Shown: in pieces, positions 1,941-40,857 of the stretch | Layout of the letters: every line of letters begins with the position of its first letter | Position numbering within the stretch: position 1 is the stretch's first letter | NCBI RefSeq assembly: GCF_007679045.1 | Contig: NZ_VEFS01000001.1 | Location: forward strand, 243,520 to 307,519 | DNA: 64,000 nucleotides | Reading direction: 5' to 3' | Origin: Microbacterium sp. BH-3-3-3 | Lineage (GTDB): Bacteria > Actinomycetota > Actinomycetes > Actinomycetales > Microbacteriaceae | Notes under the pieces: generated by a model | The model's database searches: none | Seen by the model: the letters and a program-made list of their open reading frames with translations, nothing else | Told to the model about the DNA's origin: nothing | Program-made: the position numbers and the translations under genes

Positions 1941-2543
1941 TCAGACCGGCAGCGGGTCGGGAAGCCCCGTGCGCAGCTCGACCGGCAGGTGGGCCAGGTC
2001 GTTGTGCGACAGCAGCGTCCAGGGGCGGCCCTTCTTCTGCGCGATGACGGTGAGGCCGCAGTAGGCCTGGTTGATCGTCATCCACCGCCAGTCGGGGGCC
2101 TGCAGCACCTCCCGGACGAACCACGAGATGACGAAGTTGTGCGTGATGACCAGCTCGTGCACCTCGCCGGCCTTGCGCGCGAGGAACTCCGCCGTGGCGT
2201 CGGCCATCTGCGCGCGTCCGGCCTCGATCTCGGCATCCGTCACCGAACCGAAGAAGGGCTCGTAGGCCGCGGGCGTCTCGGGCGTCATGCCCGTCGGGAT
2301 GCAGTCGAACAGCAGGGCCGACGACTCCGGCGCCACCGACGGCAGGCGTTCGGCGACGGCCCGCGCGGTCTGCGCGGCGCGTTCGAGGGGCGAGTGCCAG
2401 ACGGCGTCGAGGGGAAGACCCGACAGGCGGTCGGCCAGCAGAGCGGCCTGTCGCTGGCCCCGCGGAGAGAGGGGGCCGTCGGTGAGTCCGTGCTCTGCGT
2501 CTTGGTGCTCGCCATGGCGCACCAGGTAGATGTAGTGCGTCAC
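1941..2543 (-). CDS. Histidine phosphatase family protein (phosphoglycerate-mutase fold)
   Basis: A 200-residue protein with the catalytic LVRHGEH motif at residues 7-13, the second-histidine region LVITHNFVISW, and the conserved SPLERAAQTA stretch. These show a branch-1 histidine phosphatase, in which a phospho-histidine intermediate removes phosphate from a small molecule or protein. The substrate cannot be read from sequence. The start is a GTG giving MTHYIYLVRHGEH, which places the motif at the usual distance from the N-terminus. No clear promoter or strong ribosome site was found. It follows the aldo/keto reductase on the same strand with a 77-base gap. Confidence 0.88.
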   Translation of the reverse strand: MTHYIYLVRHGEHQDAEHGLTDGPLSPRGQRQAALLADRLSGLPLDAVWHSPLERAAQTARAVAERLPSVAPESSALLFDCIPTGMTPETPAAYEPFFGSVTDAEIEAGRAQMADATAEFLARKAGEVHELVITHNFVISWFVREVLQAPDWRWMTINQAYCGLTVIAQKKGRPWTLLSHNDLAHLPVELRTGLPDPLPV

Positions 2544-2620
2544 GTCAGCTCACTTCGTCGTCGATCTGCCGTCCCCCGGCCGGTCCGTCCAGCCTACGTC
2601 ACACCCCGACGAGGGGGCGG

Positions 2621-3646
2621 TCACTCGGCGGCGCGGGCGATATCCGACAGCTGAGCGCGGCTCAGGCGCACCCCGACGGCGCGCATGCACTCGACCACGT
2701 GCCGCGGTGCGAAGGCGTTGACGATCGGGGCGGTGACGACCTTCTGCGCGAGCAGCCAGGCGACCGCCACGGCGGCATCCGGGATTCCGAGCTCGCTGCC
2801 CACCGCGTCGAGGGCGCGCAGCACGCGCGAGCCCCGACGGTTCAGGTGCGCGGCGACCTGCGTTCCGCGCACCGATTGCGTCGACTGACCGCGGGTGCGC
2901 GTCTCGCCGGCGAGGAACCCGTGCGCGAGGGGGTGGGACGGCGTCACCGCCATGTTCTGGGCCTGGGCGATCAGCCGCACGTCGCCGTCGAACTCCGCGC
3001 GCCGCAGCACGTTGTACGGCACGTCGAGCACGGTGATGCGGGGGTAGCCGGCCGACGAGAGGATGCGGGCCTCGACGAGCTGAGCGGCCGAGTAGCCGTG
3101 GGCGCCGATCGCCCGCACCTTGCCGGATTCGACGAGCCACTCGCTCGTGGCGAGGGTGTCTTCGAGCATCGCGGCGTCGCCGCGCACGGCGTCGAGCGAC
3201 AGCACGTCGATGCGGTCGGTGCCCAGACGCGTCAGCGAAGCCTCGACCGCGCGCACCAGGTTGACCGAGTCGAGGCCGGGGTTGTCGGGGTGGCTGCCCA
3301 CGCGCACGGTCAGCACGACCTCGTCGCGCGCCCGACGGCTGCGCAGCCATTCGCCGATGATGAACTCGCTGCGTCCCGCGGCGTAGCTGTCGGCGGTGTG
3401 CAGGGCGTTGCCGCCGAGCTCGGCGTAGGTGTCGAGGATCTCGTGGCTCGCGCGCGCGTCGACGTTCCAGCCGAACTCGCCGCCCCCGAGGAACATCGGG
3501 AAGACCTCGAAGCCGCTCTCGCCCAGGGGCACGCGGACGTGCGAGCCGAGGCCGGGGCCCTGCAGGGTGATGGGGGTCGACGGATGCGGGGCTCGATCGC
3601 GTCGCAGGCGCGGCGTGGCCGTCTCATCGACGCCTGAGCCGCTCAT
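2621..3646 (-). CDS. Aldo/keto reductase
   Basis: A 341-residue NADPH-dependent oxidoreductase of the (beta/alpha)8 aldo/keto reductase superfamily, presumably acting on carbonyl compounds in the cytosol. Supporting features are LGGGEFGWNVD near the N-terminus, the HTADSYAAGRSE segment carrying the catalytic Asp/Tyr, a VRVG strand, and the C-terminal cofactor region AVAWLLAQKVVTAPIVNAF. The frame stays open into pnp, but translation must begin at ATG 3646 (MSGSGVDET), which follows a purine-rich site (GGAGAGGGG). The long upstream extension is a shadow of pnp. A short dyad, TACGG-N5-CCGTA (3682-3696), lies upstream. Confidence 0.85.
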   Translation of the reverse strand: MSGSGVDETATPRLRRDRAPHPSTPITLQGPGLGSHVRVPLGESGFEVFPMFLGGGEFGWNVDARASHEILDTYAELGGNALHTADSYAAGRSEFIIGEWLRSRRARDEVVLTVRVGSHPDNPGLDSVNLVRAVEASLTRLGTDRIDVLSLDAVRGDAAMLEDTLATSEWLVESGKVRAIGAHGYSAAQLVEARILSSAGYPRITVLDVPYNVLRRAEFDGDVRLIAQAQNMAVTPSHPLAHGFLAGETRTRGQSTQSVRGTQVAAHLNRRGSRVLRALDAVGSELGIPDAAVAVAWLLAQKVVTAPIVNAFAPRHVVECMRAVGVRLSRAQLSDIARAAE

Positions 3647-32061: not shown

Positions 32062-33278
32062 CAGGCGTCCTTTCCGGCCTTGTCGCGCTCGAGACGACGC
32101 TGGCGGCGCGTCGGGCCGGGCTTGCGGGGCACTTTGACGGCGGCGCCCGAGTCGGCGACCTCGCTCATCGCGTTGGCCGAGGTGACCGAGTCGCGACGCG
32201 AGCGCAGGAACAAGCCGAGCACGATGACGACCGCGATCACCGCGTCGACCGCGACGCCCCATCCACCCAGCCAGACGACGATCAGCGCAGCGGCGGCACC
32301 GACGGCACCGGCGGCGGGGAGCGTGAGCACCCAGCCGATCATGATGCGGCCGACGGTGTTCCACCGCACGGTCGATCCGCGGCGGCCCAGGCCCGATCCG
32401 ATGACGGATCCGGATGCCACCTGCGTGGTCGACAGCGCGAAGCCGAGGGCACTGGAGGCGAGGATCGTCGCCGCGGTCGAGGTCTCGGCCGAGAAGCCCT
32501 GCGCCGGCTTGACGTCGGTCAGGCCCTTGCCGAGCGTGCGGATGATGCGCCAGCCGCCCATGTAGGTGCCGAGCGCGATGGTGATCGCGCACGCGAAGAC
32601 GACCCAGATCTGCGGGTCGGGGTTCGCCGACGACTGCCAGCCGACCGTGATGAGCGCGAGGGTGATGACGCCCATGGTCTTCTGCGCGTCGTTCGTGCCG
32701 TGCGCCAGGGCGACCAGCGACGAGGTGAAGATCTGCCCCCAACGGAAGCCGTCCCGACCGTCCGCCTTCATGTCGTACCGCCGGGTGATGCCGTACGCGA
32801 TCTTGGTGACGACGAACGCGATGATCCCGGCCGTGAGCGGCGCGATGAGCGCCGGGAGGATGACCTTGCTCAGCACCACGCCGGTGTCGATCGCCGAGGC
32901 GCCGACGCCCACGAGGGTCGCACCGATCAGGCCGCCGAAGAGGGCGTGCGACGAGCTCGACGGCAGGCCGAGCAGCCACGTGAGCATGTTCCACGTGATC
33001 GCGCCGATGAGGCCCGCGAAGATGATCGGCGGGAAGATGTCGGGACTGAGCTGGTCCTCGCGGATCATGCCGCCCGAGATGGTCTTGGCCACCTCGGTCG
33101 ACAGGAACGCCCCGACCAGGTTCAGGCTGGCCGCCAGCAGGACCGCGACCTTCGGCTTCAGCGCACCGGTGGCGATGGGCGTGGCCATCGCGTTCGCGGT
33201 GTCGTGGAATCCGTTGGTGAAATCGAAGAACAGTGCCAGCGCGATGACCAGCACGATGATGAGGGCTGCGCTCTCCAC
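32061..33278 (-). CDS. pit: Inorganic phosphate transporter, PiT family
   Basis: A 405-residue low-affinity phosphate:cation symporter with about ten helices. Both inverted PHO-4 signatures are present: FFDFTNGFHDTANAMATPIATGA near the N-terminus and ALAHGTNDAQKTMGV near residue 215. The preferred start is the GTG at 33278 (MESAALIIVLVIALALFF), with GGAAAG six bases upstream; an in-frame GTG at 33344 would add a poorly conserved extension. A triple 11-bp direct repeat resembling a PHO box lies 62-94 bases upstream. A basic tail (GPTRRQRRLERDKAGK) ends the protein. Confidence 0.93.
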   Translation of the reverse strand: MESAALIIVLVIALALFFDFTNGFHDTANAMATPIATGALKPKVAVLLAASLNLVGAFLSTEVAKTISGGMIREDQLSPDIFPPIIFAGLIGAITWNMLTWLLGLPSSSSHALFGGLIGATLVGVGASAIDTGVVLSKVILPALIAPLTAGIIAFVVTKIAYGITRRYDMKADGRDGFRWGQIFTSSLVALAHGTNDAQKTMGVITLALITVGWQSSANPDPQIWVVFACAITIALGTYMGGWRIIRTLGKGLTDVKPAQGFSAETSTAATILASSALGFALSTTQVASGSVIGSGLGRRGSTVRWNTVGRIMIGWVLTLPAAGAVGAAAALIVVWLGGWGVAVDAVIAVVIVLGLFLRSRRDSVTSANAMSEVADSGAAVKVPRKPGPTRRQRRLERDKAGKDA

Positions 33279-33339
33279 CGTTCGCTTTCCGTGAGAAGGA
33301 AGAAGGGATGCCGACGGGATCGGCGCGACGAACGAAGAG

Positions 33340-33372
33340 TTCACCTGGAGTTCGACACCTGTTCATCGGTGT
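33340..33372 (-). promoter_or_regulatory. PHO-box-like triple direct repeat upstream of pit
   Basis: GTTCACCTGGA, GTTCGACACCT and GTTCATCGGTG follow one another at exactly 11-bp spacing (33340, 33351, 33362). The spacing and GTTCACC core match actinobacterial PhoP boxes. The site is 62 bases before the pit GTG. Confidence 0.65.
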
Positions 33373-33549
33373 CGCCTCGTCATCATTTCATCGGTGGGGG
33401 CGGCGGTCAAACGCGCGCGGGCGGGGGCGGGCACCCGCCCGGGGCGTCGGCCCCCGCGGCGCGCGGACGGCCCACGACGGAAACGCCCGACACGGCGGCA
33501 TCCGGTGCCGTCGGAGACCGATGTCGGAGGGGCGCACTACCGTGGAACG

Positions 33550-35664
33550 GTGACCGATCACGCCTCGCAGCCCACGCCTCCCGTCGCCGCCCGCCGCCCC
33601 GCGCTGCGCACGCACCACGGCGACACGTTCGACGACCCCTACGAGTGGTTGCGCGCCAAAGACGACGCCGAGGTCATCTCGCACCTCGAGGCCGAGAACG
33701 CCTACACCTCCGCGCGCACCGCGCACCTGGGGCCGCTGCGCGACGCCATCTTCGGCGAGATCAAGGGCCGCACGCTCGAGACCGACCTCTCTGTCCCCGC
33801 TCGTCGCGGCGACTGGTGGTACTACGGCCGCACCGTCGCGGGCGCGCAGTACGGCATCCAGTGCCGCGCCCCGCTCGACTCCCCCGACGACTGGACGCCG
33901 CCGACCCTGTCGCCCGACCGGCCCGTCCCGGGCGAGCAGGTGCTGTTCGACGGCAACGTCGAGGCTGAGGGCACCGAGTTCTTCTCGCTCGGCAGCTTCG
34001 AGATCTCGAACGACGGCACGCGCATGCTGTACGGCATCGACGTCGCCGGCGACGAGCGCTACACCGTGCGCGTGCGCGACCTGGTGACGGGCGAGACCCT
34101 GCCCGACGAGATCCCCGGTACGTTCTCGGGCGCAACCTTCTCGCCCGACGGCAGCTTCATCGTCTACACCACCGTCGACGACGCCTGGCGCCCCGACACC
34201 GTGTGGCTGCATGAGATCGGCACGGCGACGGATGCCGACGTGAAGCTCTTCCACGAGCCCGACGACCGGTACTGGGTCGGCGCCGACTTCACGCGCAGCG
34301 ACCGCTACCTGATGATCGAGATGGGCTCGTCGATCACGAGCGAGGAGTGGATCCTCGACGCCGACGACCTCCGGGGCGAGCCCCGGGTGGTGTGGCCGCG
34401 GCGCGAGGGCGTCGAATACTCCTCCTCGCACGCCGTGGTAGACGGCGAAGACGTGCTCTACGTCCTGCACAACGACGGGGCGCTCGACTTCGAGCTCGTC
34501 AAGGTCTCGGCATCCGACCCCCAGGGTGCCCGCGAGACCGTGATCGCGCACCACCCCGGCCACCGGCTGCTGGGCGTCGACACCTTCCGCGACTGGGGCG
34601 TGGTCGGCTACCGCCGCGACGGCCTCGCCCGCCTGGGCATGCTGTCGTACGCCGACGGCGCCGTGACCGAGATCGCCTTCGACGAGCCGCTGTACAGCGT
34701 GGGCACGGGCGGCAATCCCGAGTACGCTCCCCCGGTCCTGCGTCTGGGCTACGGTTCGTTCGTCACCCCGGGCACCGTGTACGACTACGTCATCGAGACC
34801 GGCGAGCTGCTGCTGCGCAAGCGCCAGCCCGTGCTCGGGGGCTTCGACCCCGCCGACTACGGACAGGCGCGCGTGTGGGCGCCCGCCGACGACGGCACGC
34901 AGGTTCCGGTGTCGCTGGTGTGGAAGCGCTCGTTCGGCGAACCGGGCGACACCCCCCGGCCCGTGCACCTGTACGGCTACGGCTCGTACGAGCACTCGAT
35001 CGAGCCCGGGTTCTCGGTCCCCCGCCTGTCGCTGCTCGACCGCGGTGTCGTCTTCGCCGTCGCGCACGTGCGCGGTGGCGGCGAGATGGGCCGGCAATGG
35101 TACGAAGACGGCAAGCTGCGTGCGAAGCGCAACACCTTCACCGACTTCGTCGCCGCGGGGCGTCACCTGGTCGACGCCGGCTACACGACGCCCGACCGCA
35201 TCGTCGCCGAGGGCGGCAGCGCGGGCGGCCTGCTGATGGGCGCCGTCGCCAACCTCGCGCCCGAGCTGTTCGCCGGCATCCTGGCCGACGTGCCGTTCGT
35301 CGACGCCCTCACGACCATCCTCGACCCCTCGCTCCCGCTCACGGTGATCGAGTGGGACGAGTGGGGCGACCCCCTGCACGACGCCGACGTGTACGCCTAC
35401 ATGAAGTCGTACTCGCCGTACGAGAACGTGCGCGAGGGCGTCGAGTACCCCCGCATCCTCGCGGTCACCTCGCTCAACGACACCCGCGTGCTGTACGTCG
35501 AGCCCGCCAAGTGGGTGGCGCGCCTGCGCGAGGTCGGCGCCGACGCGATGCTCAAGTGCGAGATGGTCGCCGGCCACGGCGGCGTGAGCGGTCGCTACAA
35601 CGCCTGGCGCGAGCGCGCCTTCGAGCTGGCATGGCTGCTCGACGTGCTGGGCCTCACCGACTGA
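33550..35664 (+). CDS. Oligopeptidase B-like S9 serine peptidase
   Basis: A 704-residue cytosolic prolyl-oligopeptidase-family enzyme that cleaves short peptides, in family members after basic residues. Residues ~1-410 form the beta-propeller (FDDPYEWLR at the N-terminus; ISNDGTRMLYGIDVAGDERYT). The C-terminal alpha/beta-hydrolase domain holds the nucleophile in GGSAGGLLMG (about residue 560), the Asp near SLNDTRVLY and the His in GHGGVSGR. GTG 33550 is selected by TACCGT (33538-33543) plus six bases. A terminator hairpin follows. Confidence 0.92.
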   Translation: MTDHASQPTPPVAARRPALRTHHGDTFDDPYEWLRAKDDAEVISHLEAENAYTSARTAHLGPLRDAIFGEIKGRTLETDLSVPARRGDWWYYGRTVAGAQYGIQCRAPLDSPDDWTPPTLSPDRPVPGEQVLFDGNVEAEGTEFFSLGSFEISNDGTRMLYGIDVAGDERYTVRVRDLVTGETLPDEIPGTFSGATFSPDGSFIVYTTVDDAWRPDTVWLHEIGTATDADVKLFHEPDDRYWVGADFTRSDRYLMIEMGSSITSEEWILDADDLRGEPRVVWPRREGVEYSSSHAVVDGEDVLYVLHNDGALDFELVKVSASDPQGARETVIAHHPGHRLLGVDTFRDWGVVGYRRDGLARLGMLSYADGAVTEIAFDEPLYSVGTGGNPEYAPPVLRLGYGSFVTPGTVYDYVIETGELLLRKRQPVLGGFDPADYGQARVWAPADDGTQVPVSLVWKRSFGEPGDTPRPVHLYGYGSYEHSIEPGFSVPRLSLLDRGVVFAVAHVRGGGEMGRQWYEDGKLRAKRNTFTDFVAAGRHLVDAGYTTPDRIVAEGGSAGGLLMGAVANLAPELFAGILADVPFVDALTTILDPSLPLTVIEWDEWGDPLHDADVYAYMKSYSPYENVREGVEYPRILAVTSLNDTRVLYVEPAKWVARLREVGADAMLKCEMVAGHGGVSGRYNAWRERAFELAWLLDVLGLTD

Positions 35665-35679
35665 CCCGCGCCCTCCGCG

Positions 35680-35716
35680 CCGAACGCCCCGTCGCCTCGC
35701 GCGGCGGGGCGTTCGG
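35680..35716 (+). terminator. Terminator of the oligopeptidase gene
   Basis: CCGAACGCCCCG and CGGGGCGTTCGG form a perfect 12-bp stem with a 13-base loop, 16 bases after the stop codon. Confidence 0.7.
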
Positions 35717-35780
35717 CGTGCGGGGCTTTCGGTGCCGCCCCCGCAGTGACGCACGCCGCGATCAGCCTTGCGTTGACAAC

Positions 35781-35858
35781 CCATGTCCCGATTTGTGCAG
35801 ACCGTGTCCCACTTTTGGCTGTCTGCGCACGGCTCAGACAACCATTTTCGGGACATGG
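35781..35858 (+). repeat. Left palindromic element flanking the DUF559-type gene
   Basis: This 78-base element starts CCATGTCCCG and ends CGGGACATGG. It contains TGTCCCACTTTTGGCTG and can fold on itself. It is homologous, in inverted orientation, to the element at 36874-36952, and it ends two bases before the stop codon of the enclosed gene. Confidence 0.85.
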
Positions 35859-35859
35859 A

Positions 35860-36792
35860 TCAACACACATGGGCTGAGAGCCCCGGCCTCCAACCGGCTC
35901 TGACGAGCGCATCGCGAGCGAGAGCGACGGCCGGAGCGCCTCCATCTCGAAGGTGATGTTTCAGCACGCGCACGTGATCCCATCCCGCCGCCCGGATGGC
36001 GGCCCACCGATCGGCATCCCGCGCGAACTGTCGCTCGTCCTCGGCGTGGACGCGTCCGTCGTATTCAACGGCGACCATCCATCGGGCAAAGGCGAGGTCG
36101 ATCTCCGCGACGAACACGCCTCTCGAGTCGAAGATGTCGGCGTTGACCTCGGGCGTCGGGAGCCCGTTCCGGGCCAGCAGGAGGCGCAGACGTGTCTCTC
36201 TCGGCGACCGGACGCCGGGTCGGGCGAGGTCGACCGCCGTACGGAGAACACCGCCCCGAACGTCGCCCATCTCACTGACCTCAGACCTCAGCTGCTCTGC
36301 GTCGGCCATCGGCGGCCGCCCGCCCAGGAGCGCGTCGGCCGCAGCGACCAGGTCATCAAGGGGCCAGAGCCGCCCGCATTGTCTCCATGCCCGCACGGGG
36401 TCCTCGACCGGCAGGTCGAGTGGGCCCGCAGAGAACGCTGGTGCGCGCGCTTGCAGACGGTGGCCGATGACTCCTTGCGTCCGCGGCTCCCTCGCCGGCC
36501 GGTGTGCGGAAACATGGATCCGCGGCACGTACGGCCACTCCGGAGTGCATACTCCCCGCAGAGCAAGCGCCGTCTCGTGACTGAAGAACTGCCAGGGCAT
36601 CAGGCGCGGCGCGTATGTGAGGCACTGCTCGATCAAAGACGAAGGCAGAGCGGTCGTCGACGACCGGATGCCATGGAATGGCGACGCCAAATCTGCGGCT
36701 CGCAGCCGAGCACGCGTCACTCCCAGCTCAGCGGCGGCGCCGACGGAGAAATGCTCGGGAAGCTGCCCGGGAAGAGGTCGAGGACGCGGCAT
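35860..36792 (-). CDS. DUF559/Vsr-like endonuclease-domain protein
   Basis: A 310-residue protein common in Microbacteriaceae. The N-terminal ~100 residues (SVGAAAELGVTRARLRAADL) resemble an AbiEi-type winged-helix domain. The C-terminal ~110 carry a PD-(D/E)xK, very-short-patch-repair-like core: EIDLAFARWMVAVEYDGR-H, then FARDADRWAAIRAAGWDHVRV. Asp and Glu in EIDLAF and VEYDG are the likely metal ligands. Start ATG 36792 has a purine-rich stretch upstream. It stands alone, with no visible toxin or methylase partner. Both sides carry inverted copies of a palindromic element, the left one abutting the stop codon, which suggests the unit may have moved as a cassette. The function (nuclease, antitoxin or regulator) is unproven. 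Confidence 0.8.
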   Translation of the reverse strand: MPRPRPLPGQLPEHFSVGAAAELGVTRARLRAADLASPFHGIRSSTTALPSSLIEQCLTYAPRLMPWQFFSHETALALRGVCTPEWPYVPRIHVSAHRPAREPRTQGVIGHRLQARAPAFSAGPLDLPVEDPVRAWRQCGRLWPLDDLVAAADALLGGRPPMADAEQLRSEVSEMGDVRGGVLRTAVDLARPGVRSPRETRLRLLLARNGLPTPEVNADIFDSRGVFVAEIDLAFARWMVAVEYDGRVHAEDERQFARDADRWAAIRAAGWDHVRVLKHHLRDGGAPAVALARDALVRAGWRPGLSAHVC

Positions 36793-36873
36793 CCCTCAGC
36801 TTCTCGCCTCCGCCGACCCCGTCCCCAGTTATCCACAGGGCGCCCGCCACGACAAGTCGCGCCGAGGTCGCCA

Positions 36874-36952
36874 CCATGTCCCGATTTTGGCTGCCTGGAG
36901 GGCGCCTGGGCAGCCAAAAGTGGGACATGGACCGACACAAAGTGGGACAAGG
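36874..36952 (-). repeat. Right palindromic element flanking the DUF559-type gene
   Basis: Inverted copy (79 bases) of the element at 35781. It includes a 22-bp-arm hairpin (36874-36895/36909-36930, 20 of 22 paired, 13-base loop) followed by a further GTGGGACA half-site near 36941. Confidence 0.85.
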
Positions 36953-37298
36953 TACCTGGCCCGCCCCACAGAAGGCCGCGCCCGCATGGCGGGTCGCCCC
37001 GGCGCGCGCAAGGCCGAGCTTCACCCAGCAGAACGCCCCGCCTGCATGGCAGGACGCCCCGGCGCGCGCAACGCCTGCCCCGCCCCGCAGAACGCCCACA
37101 CCGCACAGCGCGACGCCCCGCCCCGCACACAGCGCGACACCCCCGCACACAGCACGACGCCCCGCCCCGCACACAGCGCGACGCCCCGCCCCGCACACAG
37201 CACGACGCCCCGCCCCGCACACAGCACGACGCCCCGCCCCGCACACAGCGCGACGCCCCGCCCCACACACAGCAGGACGGGGCGTCGACGCAGCAGGC
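36953..37298. repeat. Low-complexity repeats between the DUF559-type gene and pfkA
   Basis: A 24-base unit (GCACACAGCRCGACGCCCCG plus CCCC) is repeated about six times from 37145 to 37288. To its left, GCATGGCRGGWCGCCCCGGC recurs twice (near 36986 and 37042). No gene is visible. Confidence 0.88.
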
Positions 37299-38327
37299 TC
37301 AGCCGAACAGCGCGGCGGCCTCTTCGTAGCGGTACAGGGGCACGCTGTTGAGCTCGCCGAGGGCGTCGGCGAAGGGCACGCGCACGATGTCGGTGCCGCG
37401 CATGGCGACCATCTGGCCCCACGCGCCCTCGTGCAGCGCGTCGGCGGCGTGCAGGCCCAGGCGCGTCGCGAGCACGCGGTCGAAGCCCGAGGGCGAACCG
37501 CCGCGCTGGATGTGACCGAGCACGGTCGAGCGGGTCTCGATGCCGGTGAGACGCTCGATCTCGGGGGCGAGCTGCTCGCCGATACCGCCCAGGCGCGGGC
37601 GGTTGAAGGCGTCGAGACCCTTGTCGCTGAACGCCTCGTCCATGCCCTTGAGCTTGAAGCCCTCCGACACGACGACCAGGGGCGCGCGACCGCGGTCGTG
37701 CGCGCGCGTGACCTGCTCGGTGATCTCCTCGATCGACATCGGCACCTCGGGGATGCAGATGACGTGCGCACCCGCGGCGATACCGGCGTGCAGGGCGATC
37801 CAGCCGACGTGGCGGCCCATGACCTCGGCCACCATGCAGCGCTGGTGGGAGTCACCGGTGGTGCGCAGGCGGTCCATGGCATCCGTCGCGATGTTCACGG
37901 CGGTGTCGAACCCGAACGAGTAGTCGGTCGCCCGCAGGTCGTTGTCGATCGTCTTCGGCACGCCGAGCACGTTGATGCCGTCCTTCGACAGGCGATCGGC
38001 CGCGGCCAGGGTTCCTTCGCCACCGATGGCGAGGATGCCGTCGATCCGGTGACCGTACAGGGTCTTCGAGATGTTCTCGGCCCCGCCGCGCGCTCCCTCG
38101 TAGGGGTTGGTGCGGCTCGTGCCGAGGATGGTGCCGCCGACCTTGGACAGACCCTTCACCTCGTGGCGGGTGAGGGGGAAGAAGTCGCCGTCGACCACGC
38201 CGCGCCAGCCGTCGCGGATGCCGACGAACTCGATGTCGTAGTTGGTCGTGCCCTTGAGCACGACGCCACGGATCACCGCGTTGAGCCCGGGGCAGTCGCC
38301 GCCGCTGGTCAGGATGCCGATCTTCAT
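37299..38327 (-). CDS. pfkA: ATP-type 6-phosphofructokinase
   Basis: Phosphorylates fructose 6-phosphate in glycolysis. The 342 residues include GILTSGGDCPGLNAVIRG at the N-terminus, GGEGTLAAADRL (about residue 103), the catalytic loop PKTIDNDL, MGRHVGWIA and HIQRGGSPSGFDR. The Gly in GGEGT is the residue associated with ATP use, whereas PPi enzymes have Asp; the Lys in PKTIDND is shared with PPi-dependent relatives. The mix is normal for actinobacterial PfkA (group III). ATG 38327 has GAGGA eight bases upstream. Confidence 0.94.
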   Translation of the reverse strand: MKIGILTSGGDCPGLNAVIRGVVLKGTTNYDIEFVGIRDGWRGVVDGDFFPLTRHEVKGLSKVGGTILGTSRTNPYEGARGGAENISKTLYGHRIDGILAIGGEGTLAAADRLSKDGINVLGVPKTIDNDLRATDYSFGFDTAVNIATDAMDRLRTTGDSHQRCMVAEVMGRHVGWIALHAGIAAGAHVICIPEVPMSIEEITEQVTRAHDRGRAPLVVVSEGFKLKGMDEAFSDKGLDAFNRPRLGGIGEQLAPEIERLTGIETRSTVLGHIQRGGSPSGFDRVLATRLGLHAADALHEGAWGQMVAMRGTDIVRVPFADALGELNSVPLYRYEEAAALFG

Positions 38328-38697
38328 GGGCAGAGTCCTCAAGTGCTGTGGTTCGGGTGGAGGTCGGCGCCGTTGCCGTCTTCGACCTTATCGCCGCGGG
38401 CGGGACGGCTGCCACACGGCGAAGAAGAGCGGGCGGATGCCGTGGCCCCGGCGCCCCGCGCACGCCGCACCACCGCCGTCGTGCGGACGCCACCCGCGAC
38501 ACGCCGTTCCTCGGGCGTCCGGCCCCGGCGGGTCGTCCCCGACGTCCGCACGACGGCACCAGGCACGACGGCCCGAGGCACGACGGCCCGAGCCAACGAC
38601 GGCGCGAGCCACGAGGCCGCGAGGCACGACGGCACCCCGGCCGGAACGCACGAACGCCCCGGCGCCGAAGCGACCGGGGCGTTCGTGACGAACGGGA
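38328..38697. other. Intergenic region upstream of pfkA
   Basis: It holds the pfkA ribosome site at the left and, near 38550-38640, short imperfect repeats (GCACGACGGC type). A perfect terminator stem is listed separately. I see no gene and no clear pfkA promoter hexamers. Confidence 0.5.
38650..38686 (-). terminator. Terminator of the SNF2 helicase gene
   Basis: ACGAACGCCCCGG and CCGGGGCGTTCGT form a perfect 13-bp stem with an 11-base loop, 11 bases past the helicase stop. Confidence 0.7.
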
Positions 38698-40857
38698 TCA
38701 GGCCTTGCCGAGCGCCTGACGCAGCAGGTGCATGAGCGCCGACAGCTGCACCGAGTCGCTGGACCCGGGCTCGACCGCCAGCCCGTCGAGGGCGCGCTGG
38801 GCGAGGCCCTCCTTGGAGTCGATGAGCTCGGCGATCTTGGTGTCGATCGTGTGCGCGGCGATGATGCGCCACGCGGTCACGGGCTCGTCCTGGCCGATGC
38901 GGTGCACGCGGTCGATCGCCTGCGTCTGCTCGGCGGCCGTCCACGACAGCTCGGCGAGCACGACGTTCGACGCGGCCTGCATGTTGAGGCCGACGCCGGC
39001 GGCGGTGAGCGAACAGACGGCGATGCCCACGTCGGGGTCGCTGTTGAACGCGTCGATCGCGGCCTGGCGCGCGGTCGAGGTCTGCTCTCCGCGCACCGAG
39101 ACGGCCTTCAGGCCCGAGGCCTTGAAGTGCGCCTCGGCGGCGTCCATGACGTCGATGTGCTTGGCGAAGAACACGACCTTGCCCACCGAGCGCTGCAGCT
39201 GCACGGCGTAGTCGGCCGCGAGGTGCGCCTTGGCCTGGCCGATGCGGCGCACCATCGTGAACACGTTCTCGCTGCCGGAGCCGGCGGCCTTGGACTCCTC
39301 GAGCTCGCCGTGGGCGACGAGACGCACGATGTCCTCGTCGATCTCGCCGCGGGCGAGACCGCGGTCTCCGCGCGCCTCGATGATGCGACGGTACTTCGCT
39401 GCGAGGCGGGCACCGAGCTCGCGCTCGGCCTGGCGGATGGAGCGGCCGTATTCGTCGTCGAGCTCGACGGGCAGGTCGGCGACCAGCTTGTCGGGCAGGT
39501 CGGCGGCGACGTCCTTCTTCTTGCGCCGCACGATGCCCATCGAGATGACGGCCTCACGCGCCTCGGGGTAGAACGACTTGTCGGCGGGGGTCAGGCCCGT
39601 GGCATCCAGCTTCTCCATGAGCTCGGGACCGGGCTTCTCGCCGTTGGTCCAGCCGAGGAAGCGCCAGATCGCGTCGAAGTCCTCGACGTCGTTGATCAGC
39701 GGGGTGCCCGTGAGCGCCAGCATGAGCGGGTCGCGGGTCTGCTGACGGACGCGGGATGCCAGAGCCAGCACGTTCTGCGAGCGCTGCGAGGTGAGGTTCT
39801 TGATGAAGTGCGCCTCGTCGACCACGACGCCCTTGAGGCCGATCGACGACAGCCACGACAGGTGCCGGTCGAGGATCTCGTAGTTGACGATGAAGACGTC
39901 GGCGAAGGCGTCGATGTCGGCGCCGCCGCCCGAGATGACGGTCGCCCGGCGCTGCGGCGTCCACCGCTGCACCTCGCGGGCCCAGTTCATCTTGACCACG
40001 TTGGGGACGACGACCAGCAGCGGGTAGGCATCGGCGACGGATGCCGCGAGCACCGACTCCGCGGTCTTGCCCAGGCCCGGCTCGTCGGCGAGCAGGAACG
40101 AGCGGTGCCCGAGGCGCACGGCCTCGAGGAAGCGCGACTGGTGCGGCATGACCTCGAGCCCGCGCGGCGAGAGCCGGTCGAACTCGGGGACGGGAGGCAG
40201 CTCCATGCTCGCGGCCGACCCGCCGGCGCCGGTCTCGAACGCCTTGTACAGCGGGCCCATGAGCTCCCAGCCGTCGAGGCGGCGGCGCGGCGCGTCACCG
40301 CTCGTGCGCGGGGTGAGGTCGGGGGCGAGGAAGGGGTTGGCCATCTGACGCGCCTCGATCGACGCGGGGATGACCTGCTTCTCGGCCAGCGCCGCCGGCA
40401 CCACGGGGGTGATCTTGGGCGCGTTGTCGGTGATGATCAGCTCGTCCGGCGGCAGTTCGGCGCCGGATTCCAGCAGCCAGTCGCGGCGCATGCGACGAGC
40501 GACCGGCGAGGTGGCCGCGTCGACCTCGAGCAGCTGGATCAGCGAGGTGTCGCGCGCGGCGGTCTTGGCGAGGATCGTCGCGACCCCGTCGAGGCGCTTC
40601 AGCAGCTCGGCGCGGGCGGCGTCGGTGATCTCGGGGTCGGCCTTGACGCGTGCGCGCTCTTCGCGCACGAGGAAGGCGATCACCTGGAACTTGACGCGGT
40701 TGGTCGGCCCGAGCTTGCCGCGCTGAGCCTTCGCTTCGACCTCGCGCACCTTGCGGGCGAGGATCGGGATGACGGGGGCTTCGTCGTCTCGTCGGGATGA
40801 CGTGGTCTTCCTGCGCCGCTGGCTCGAGCTACGGGCGGCGGTTGCCGTGGTCGGCAT
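38698..40857 (-). CDS. SNF2-family DEAD/DEAH-box helicase
   Basis: A 719-residue RapA/SNF2-like ATPase. Residues ~1-230 are a basic, family-specific N-terminus. The helicase core has motif I DEPGLGKT (usually DEMGLGKT), motif II DEAH (VVDEAHFIKN), motif III LTGTPL, and motif VI QAIDRVHRIGQDEPV near residue 655. SNF2 proteins translocate on duplex DNA and remodel protein-DNA complexes or RNA polymerase. ATG 40857 is preceded by AGGAGG. No restriction or defence genes are adjacent, so a housekeeping role is more likely than a defence island. Confidence 0.9.
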   Translation of the reverse strand: MPTTATAARSSSQRRRKTTSSRRDDEAPVIPILARKVREVEAKAQRGKLGPTNRVKFQVIAFLVREERARVKADPEITDAARAELLKRLDGVATILAKTAARDTSLIQLLEVDAATSPVARRMRRDWLLESGAELPPDELIITDNAPKITPVVPAALAEKQVIPASIEARQMANPFLAPDLTPRTSGDAPRRRLDGWELMGPLYKAFETGAGGSAASMELPPVPEFDRLSPRGLEVMPHQSRFLEAVRLGHRSFLLADEPGLGKTAESVLAASVADAYPLLVVVPNVVKMNWAREVQRWTPQRRATVISGGGADIDAFADVFIVNYEILDRHLSWLSSIGLKGVVVDEAHFIKNLTSQRSQNVLALASRVRQQTRDPLMLALTGTPLINDVEDFDAIWRFLGWTNGEKPGPELMEKLDATGLTPADKSFYPEAREAVISMGIVRRKKKDVAADLPDKLVADLPVELDDEYGRSIRQAERELGARLAAKYRRIIEARGDRGLARGEIDEDIVRLVAHGELEESKAAGSGSENVFTMVRRIGQAKAHLAADYAVQLQRSVGKVVFFAKHIDVMDAAEAHFKASGLKAVSVRGEQTSTARQAAIDAFNSDPDVGIAVCSLTAAGVGLNMQAASNVVLAELSWTAAEQTQAIDRVHRIGQDEPVTAWRIIAAHTIDTKIAELIDSKEGLAQRALDGLAVEPGSSDSVQLSALMHLLRQALGKA

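Follow-up and report, generated by a model that had tools for sequence, protein, structure and literature searches.

A predicted AbiEi-Vsr/EDxHD nuclease of Microbacterium encoded between inverted palindromes that co-diverge with it: a possible REPIN-RAYT-like partnership

The enzyme reported to partner the dispersed REP-like palindromes of bacteria is the RAYT transposase, which is described as encoded by a single-copy gene that lies between two inverted REPs, coevolves with these repeats and is passed on vertically (PMC2817692, PMC3116915, PMC8049555). CGTC REPs are likewise dispersed palindromes and are reported to have no transposase dedicated to them (PMC3733652). Proteins of the AbiEi family are reported to bind inverted repeats, of 23 bp in the case of AbiEi and Rv2827c, and to autoregulate via inverted repeats in their own promoter (PMC7319586). 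The homing nuclease I-Bth0305I reportedly forms a dimer on a target just short of 60 bp (PMC3943268), and a Vsr-like protein is reported from Caulobacter (PMC12907096). Among the matches listed from open PubMed Central, no title or abstract opening links palindromes to DUF559 or AbiEi-Vsr nucleases.

Here we describe a nuclease gene of Microbacterium sp. BH-3-3-3 that lies between two inverted palindromic elements. Our preferred reading, to which we assign a probability of roughly 0.55, is a gene-and-repeat partnership functioning like REPIN-RAYT and built on a non-homologous enzyme. The source genome comprises 3.56 Mb in 19 contigs, and the window, the whole stretch of 64,000 nucleotides that was analyzed, corresponds to G000:C11:243520-307519. 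Its features are as follows, in window coordinates; R1 is a covariance model derived from 16 elements of the same genome, both window elements among them, so that their R1 matches are not independent.

33394-35664, plus strand: S9-type peptidase gene, a conserved neighbor (ORF start mechanical)
35781-35858, minus strand: left palindromic element, 78 bases, palindrome arms within 35802-35858 (R1 match C11:279299-279377 minus, E 6e-21)
35781-35789: outward half-site of the left element, sequence CCATGTCCC
35860-36792, minus strand: nuclease gene, ORF of 310 aa, with a predicted AbiEi-like region and Vsr/EDxHD-like domain
36874-36952, plus strand: right palindromic element, 79 bases, palindrome arms within 36874-36930 (R1 match C11:280393-280472 plus, E 7e-21)
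36944-36952: outward half-site of the right element, sequence GGGACAAGG
37299-38342, minus strand: pfkA-like gene, the other conserved neighbor, convergent with the peptidase gene

The sequence-only reading of this DNA had proposed two homologous elements of 78 and 79 bases in opposite orientation, and both were recovered at these positions. A repeat search paired 35802-35858 with 36874-36930 in inverted orientation (57 nt, 74% complementary) and returned the right element also as a hairpin of its own (22-nt arms, 91%); the shared 17-mer TGTCCCACTTTTGGCTG matches three times in the window at ≤3 mismatches, against 0.03 expected. That each element is itself palindromic holds for a single 51-bp palindrome (TGTCCC..GGGACA), with the correction that both elements have a third half-site, which points outward from the nuclease gene and lies 21-22 bp beyond the palindrome. 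The left copy abuts the nuclease stop codon, as had been noted, with one base between the TGA and the element; the right copy lies 81 bases ahead of the start codon. The names of the neighboring genes, which we take to be an S9-type peptidase and a pfkA-like gene, come from reading the sequence by eye. An array of ~24-bp direct repeats (CCCCGCACACAGCRCGACGC) occupies 37073-37303, in the interval that separates the right element from the pfkA-like gene. Rfam gave zero matches within positions 33000-39000 of the window.

The enclosed gene had been read as Vsr-like with an AbiEi-like N-terminus, in agreement with the fold predicted here. In the AlphaFold2 model (pLDDT 93.6), the AbiEi-like region (about residues 3-191) fits AbiEi 6y8q with Z 11.0 over 177 residues and the C-terminal domain (about residues 196-301) fits I-Bth0305I 3r3p with Z 12.0, Vsr 1cw0 fitting the model with Z 9.8; these values come from VIA-align, applied as a second look at Foldseek matches, and the EDxHD/Vsr catalytic fold is present in the predicted model. 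The top Foldseek matches include Rv2827c and the I-Bth0305I catalytic domain, none with E ≤0.001. Residues E199, R203, E243, G246, H249 and D259 are among the columns invariant across 35 homologues. By sequence the DUF559 label of the earlier reading is weak, since a Pfam scan at E ≤1 gave PF18741 (21.5 bits) and DUF559 (14.4 bits) only, both below cut-off, and it is the predicted fold that lends it support; a Y1 (PF01797) HuH transposase is absent from the same scan. PADLOC likewise returned weak AbiEi matches. As modeled, the window protein is a predicted AbiEi antitoxin fold fused to a Vsr/EDxHD homing-type nuclease. Its nearest named relative among those returned is a protein of Microbacterium testaceum StLB037, 93% identical.

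Homologues (E ≤1e-10) are found in 139 of 149 genomes of the genus, allowing the flanks of many of them to be compared. The set started from 90 places, 30 of them automatic loci and 60 drawn from listings; four are other PF18741 places of the source genome with no match. Of the other 86, 83 had two long-enough flanks, and each was scored by the best local match, direct or inverted, between upstream and downstream flank. The median score was 49 at nuclease loci vs 22 in 249 same-locus control windows. Flank similarity exceeded the control 95th percentile at 71 of 83 nuclease loci, which are not independent, as 33 share the pfkA-S9 locus by label, vs 30 of 585 control genes, and the 99th percentile at 61 of 83 vs 6 of 585; the remaining 12 nuclease loci stay within the 95th percentile. 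Loci without a pfkA or S9 neighbor (n=48) gave 40 and 36 cases above the two percentiles, respectively. Hairpins on both sides exceeded the control 95th percentile at 64 of the 83 loci. The top-scoring "control" gene is the G018 nuclease, itself in the nuclease set and met within a longer stretch, and the third-highest is a response-regulator-like gene between two dispersed elements of the locus-3_4 type.

Outside the genus, the best PF18741 matches lay mostly in reading frames of >1000 codons, and these 30 loci (L360-L389) were left unused. Twenty other loci of AbiEi/DUF559 size (frames of 244-789 codons) were chosen by hand within the same order, 19 in other genera and one, L391, in the same genus. 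Set against 200 control pairs, thirteen of the twenty scored above the 95th percentile and 11 above every control, L391 being in both counts; L398 (flanked on each side by 73-bp palindromes), L399 (with inverted repeats of 57 bp), L390, L402, L406 and L407 are clear cases. These comparisons indicate that the arrangement of a nuclease gene enclosed by two palindromes recurs as a unit in many species and at several loci.

The palindromes themselves differ between nuclease groups. Mostly TGTCCC types accompany the pfkA-S9 group, and GAGTGTCCAAGACACGC, AGGTCCCAGTTGGGCCGGG, GCGGTCCAGGTT and further types accompany the others. Around 63 nucleases at the pfkA-S9 locus, a pattern search located the GTCCC palindrome on both sides in 44, on one side in three and on neither in 16, leaving 35 of 126 sides without it; 11 of these 16 nucleases fall in one distant tree clade, and some of the 16 have other hairpins. 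In the nearest elements (n=91), the extra half-site points outward in 58, both ways in nine and inward in none, and is absent in 24. Across 41 loci, distances between palindrome arms are correlated with those between the nucleases (r 0.57), also given the distance of the S9 peptidase (partial r 0.53, permutation p 0.001); the correlation of palindrome with S9, or host, distance given nuclease distance vanishes (partial r -0.07). Mean protein distance at these loci is 0.40 for the nuclease vs 0.18 for its S9 neighbor. Judged from sequence distances, the palindrome tracks nuclease divergence, not host divergence. A generic terminator was considered and rejected, as it leaves this co-divergence unexplained.

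Within the elements, pairing is retained as sequence changes. Across 116 non-redundant 51-bp palindromes, positions 11-21 pair above shuffled mates (z 2.3 to 10.3, relatedness ignored), while positions 8-10, an internal loop, do not (z -0.6 to -1.9); pairs 2-6 are uninformative, being imposed by the search pattern. Such inner-stem covariation favors selection for a folded strand. The strand preference of the hairpin, as judged by the bias of G-T vs A-C mismatches, is weak (154 v 121, p 0.05; 54 v 33 elements).

The source genome carries further copies of the element. The 17-mer has 17 matches there at ≤2 mismatches and none as a reversed pattern, and R1 gives 39 matches with both strands counted, corresponding among the matches listed to 12 element places besides the nuclease locus. 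Eleven of the 12 are also element places in StLB037, indicating that element movement is rare. The exception, L273, has two tandem copies in the source genome and a diverged copy in G151, and the matching stretches of G149, G150 and G071 have none. Another place, L259, holds at least three tandem copies in StLB037 and one in G150, with none in the matching stretch of the source genome; at both places of gain or loss, the adjoining DNA is too diverged for a target duplication to be read. A second AbiEi/DUF559-like nuclease of the source genome (L123, C19:1000-8000, gene at about 2500-3576 of that stretch) has different repeats on both sides; three more PF18741 places (L120-L122) were left out, the frame read there being apparently wrong.

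The position of these copies relative to genes bears on the reading of the palindromes as operators, by which the AbiEi-like part would repress its own gene, the scattered copies would be further operators of a regulon, and the nuclease domain would have a separate job such as phage defense. The reported autoregulation of AbiEi-family proteins through promoter inverted repeats (PMC7319586), the placement of the right element ahead of the start codon and the weak PADLOC matches all speak for it. It does not anticipate, however, an element directly after the stop codon or inner stems that stay paired despite sequence change. Furthermore, only two of 40 scattered-site stretches lie between divergent genes, compared to 27 between codirectional and six between convergent genes, four inside a called gene and one undetermined; these stretches come from four genomes, with orthologous sites counted repeatedly and genes called with a simple custom caller. 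Taken together, we consider an operator role unlikely, at somewhat better than one chance in five.

The history of the locus can be followed on a tree of 131 distinct nucleases, many inner branches of which are weakly supported. Three places account for 94 of them: pfkA-S9 with 61, split 32 to 29 between the two orientations; locus 2_5 with 16; and locus 3_4 with 17. Eight place labels require 10 changes on the tree, vs a possible minimum of seven and a shuffled mean of 60, pointing to a largely vertical pattern with rare moves and few flips. The pfkA gene is present in all 40 genomes picked because a close homologue was missing or placed elsewhere, and several of the 30 returned loci show a bare stretch after it. 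Orphan palindromes without a nuclease follow the pfkA-like gene at L330, L336, L337 and L340. A different nuclease family, accompanied by hairpins of its own, occupies at least seven loci (L332, L339, L344, L345, L348, L355 and L356), and in six of the seven the hairpins on the two sides look alike by eye; the L344 protein scores 38.0 bits for PF18741 and 31.1 bits for DUF559. The pfkA-S9 site can thus also lack the cassette, carry it in the reverse orientation, keep orphan palindromes, or house another nuclease together with the palindromes of that nuclease. Two Microbacterium-like loci, L156 and L213, occur in records titled Stenotrophomonas maltophilia and Planococcus sp.; the nuclease DNA of L213 is common to a same-genus genome, and these records are probably mislabeled or contaminated assemblies.

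The varied states of this site are what a homing cassette might leave behind. According to that explanation, the EDxHD-like nuclease would cut cassette-free alleles of a few intergenic sites, the palindromes would be recognition remnants or recombination ends, and the scattered copies would be secondary. The closest catalytic fold in the predicted model is indeed that of the homing nuclease I-Bth0305I. Against this, the pattern at conserved loci is largely vertical, and palindromes dispersed far from the gene are unexpected under plain homing, so that we hold homing to be improbable, at about one chance in seven. The same history disposes of the proposal that the window holds a freely moving, MITE-like cassette of about 1.17 kb: the gene is single-copy in the source genome, homologues sit mostly at a few conserved loci and inheritance is mostly vertical, which is not the behavior of an autonomous multi-copy element of the MITE or insertion-sequence kind.

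Whether dispersed palindromes belong to the nuclease was followed in other genomes. G007, a carrier of the locus-3_4 nuclease, has zero R1 matches, and a loose window-type pattern matches once in 400 kb of it, at a place unlike an element. The same 400 kb, nuclease included, contain 21 matches to the locus-3_4 half-site, of which 17 lie outside the nuclease locus, spread over nine places, compared to 0-2 in ten base shuffles, one in 138 kb of the source genome and none in 200 kb of G059. G018 carries both nuclease types, and all six locus-3_4 half-site matches in a 200-kb sample of it lie at the locus-3_4 nuclease, with none dispersed; in 200 kb of G059, its own type occurs in four 300-base bins, two beside the nuclease and two away. 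As far as these sequence samples go, dispersal of cognate palindromes holds for two types, with little or none for two others, and the odds given above for our preferred reading were slightly lowered because dispersal is seen for two types only.

For the window type, 28 of the 39 genomes that have a ≥50%-identity homologue contain at least five R1 matches, vs 8 of 110 others (p 2e-14), among the matches listed, in a hand tally with both strands counted and at most about 31 candidates scored per genome. We preferred the 50% cut over a hand-drawn "type 1" set (25/26 vs 11/123), which had been drawn after the palindromes were seen. In one of the eight exceptions, G114, four window-type elements were read, and its inspected nuclease has quite different palindromes. 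At two G114 loci, L450 and L452, the outer half-site of the element runs into an apparent start codon. The association of element and nuclease proposed from the sequence alone does not stand as a simple cassette, as no PF18741 match lies within 5 kb of the 12 other listed element places of the source genome, an outcome that the sequence-only reading had itself named as a refutation; it stands in the form of lineage-specific cognate palindromes across homologues. That an unrelated insertion sequence spreads the palindromes, with the nuclease gene merely between two copies, would suit those 12 places and the eight genomes with no ≥50%-identity homologue among the matches listed, yet we regard it as very improbable, given that the bracket recurs with different palindromes around homologues at other loci, that it extends to the 11 of 20 hand-chosen same-order loci (19 in other genera) beyond all controls, and that palindromes follow the nuclease and not the host.

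Under the preferred gene-and-repeat partnership, the AbiEi-like part would bind the repeated GTCCC/GGGAC half-sites, by analogy with the binding of inverted repeats by AbiEi and Rv2827c, and the Vsr/EDxHD-like domain would nick or cut at or beside them. Occasional copying would carry palindromes to further intergenic sites, perhaps in the form of folded single strands, given that base pairing of the inner stem is preserved as its sequence changes. The nuclease cassette could flip or be exchanged at its locus; the gene itself is mostly inherited vertically, like RAYT genes. More tentatively, at a little under even odds, we suggest a second, independently evolved REP-like class, widespread in Actinobacteria, in which the enzymes that generate and sustain families of dispersed palindromes are AbiEi-Vsr/EDxHD fusions and not HuH transposases, are exchanged or inverted at favored intergenic sites, and whose relatives may explain other REP families without a known transposase. 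If true, gene-and-repeat partnerships arose more than once, and a large actinobacterial group of AbiEi/DUF559 proteins would have a suggested function. Such proteins would also be a source of sequence-specific DNA-binding nucleases with candidate targets adjoining their genes.

Among known systems, the CGTC REPs resemble the window elements in being dispersed palindromes and differ in sequence (PMC3733652). AbiE type IV toxin-antitoxin systems (AbiEi, Rv2827c) share the predicted AbiEi-like fold and inverted repeats beside the gene; in contrast to them, the window protein carries a nuclease domain and its gene neighbors are pfkA-like and S9-peptidase-like. EDxHD homing endonucleases such as I-Bth0305I, and Vsr, are alike in the predicted C-terminal fold, whereas the window nuclease is fused to an AbiEi-like region and its gene is free-standing, with cognate palindromes on both sides and dispersed. 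REPIN/RAYT systems differ in their enzyme, a Y1 HuH transposase instead of a predicted AbiEi-Vsr/EDxHD fusion, and in the ends of their repeats, GT(A/G)G instead of CCATGTCCC. The 16 aligned own-genome elements, picked via the TGTCCC pattern, end in CCATGTCCC / GGGACA and show no GT(A/G)G head at the palindrome foot; GTGG is present inside the stem of many copies. Copy number is also low here, with 12 further places listed, and the host belongs to the Actinobacteria. The likenesses to REPIN/RAYT, as those systems are described, are extensive: a gene between two inverted palindromes, sometimes directly after the stop codon, vertical inheritance, evolution faster than that of neighbors, coevolution of enzyme and palindrome, compensatory hairpin changes, and cognate dispersal (PMC2817692, PMC3116915, PMC8049555), the last seen with the window type and, in G007, with the locus-3_4 type. 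The parallel to REP-associated transposases drawn from the sequence alone fits in its flanking palindromes, coevolution and dispersal. The window system would work like the RAYT family and is not a member of it, as enzyme and repeat ends differ.
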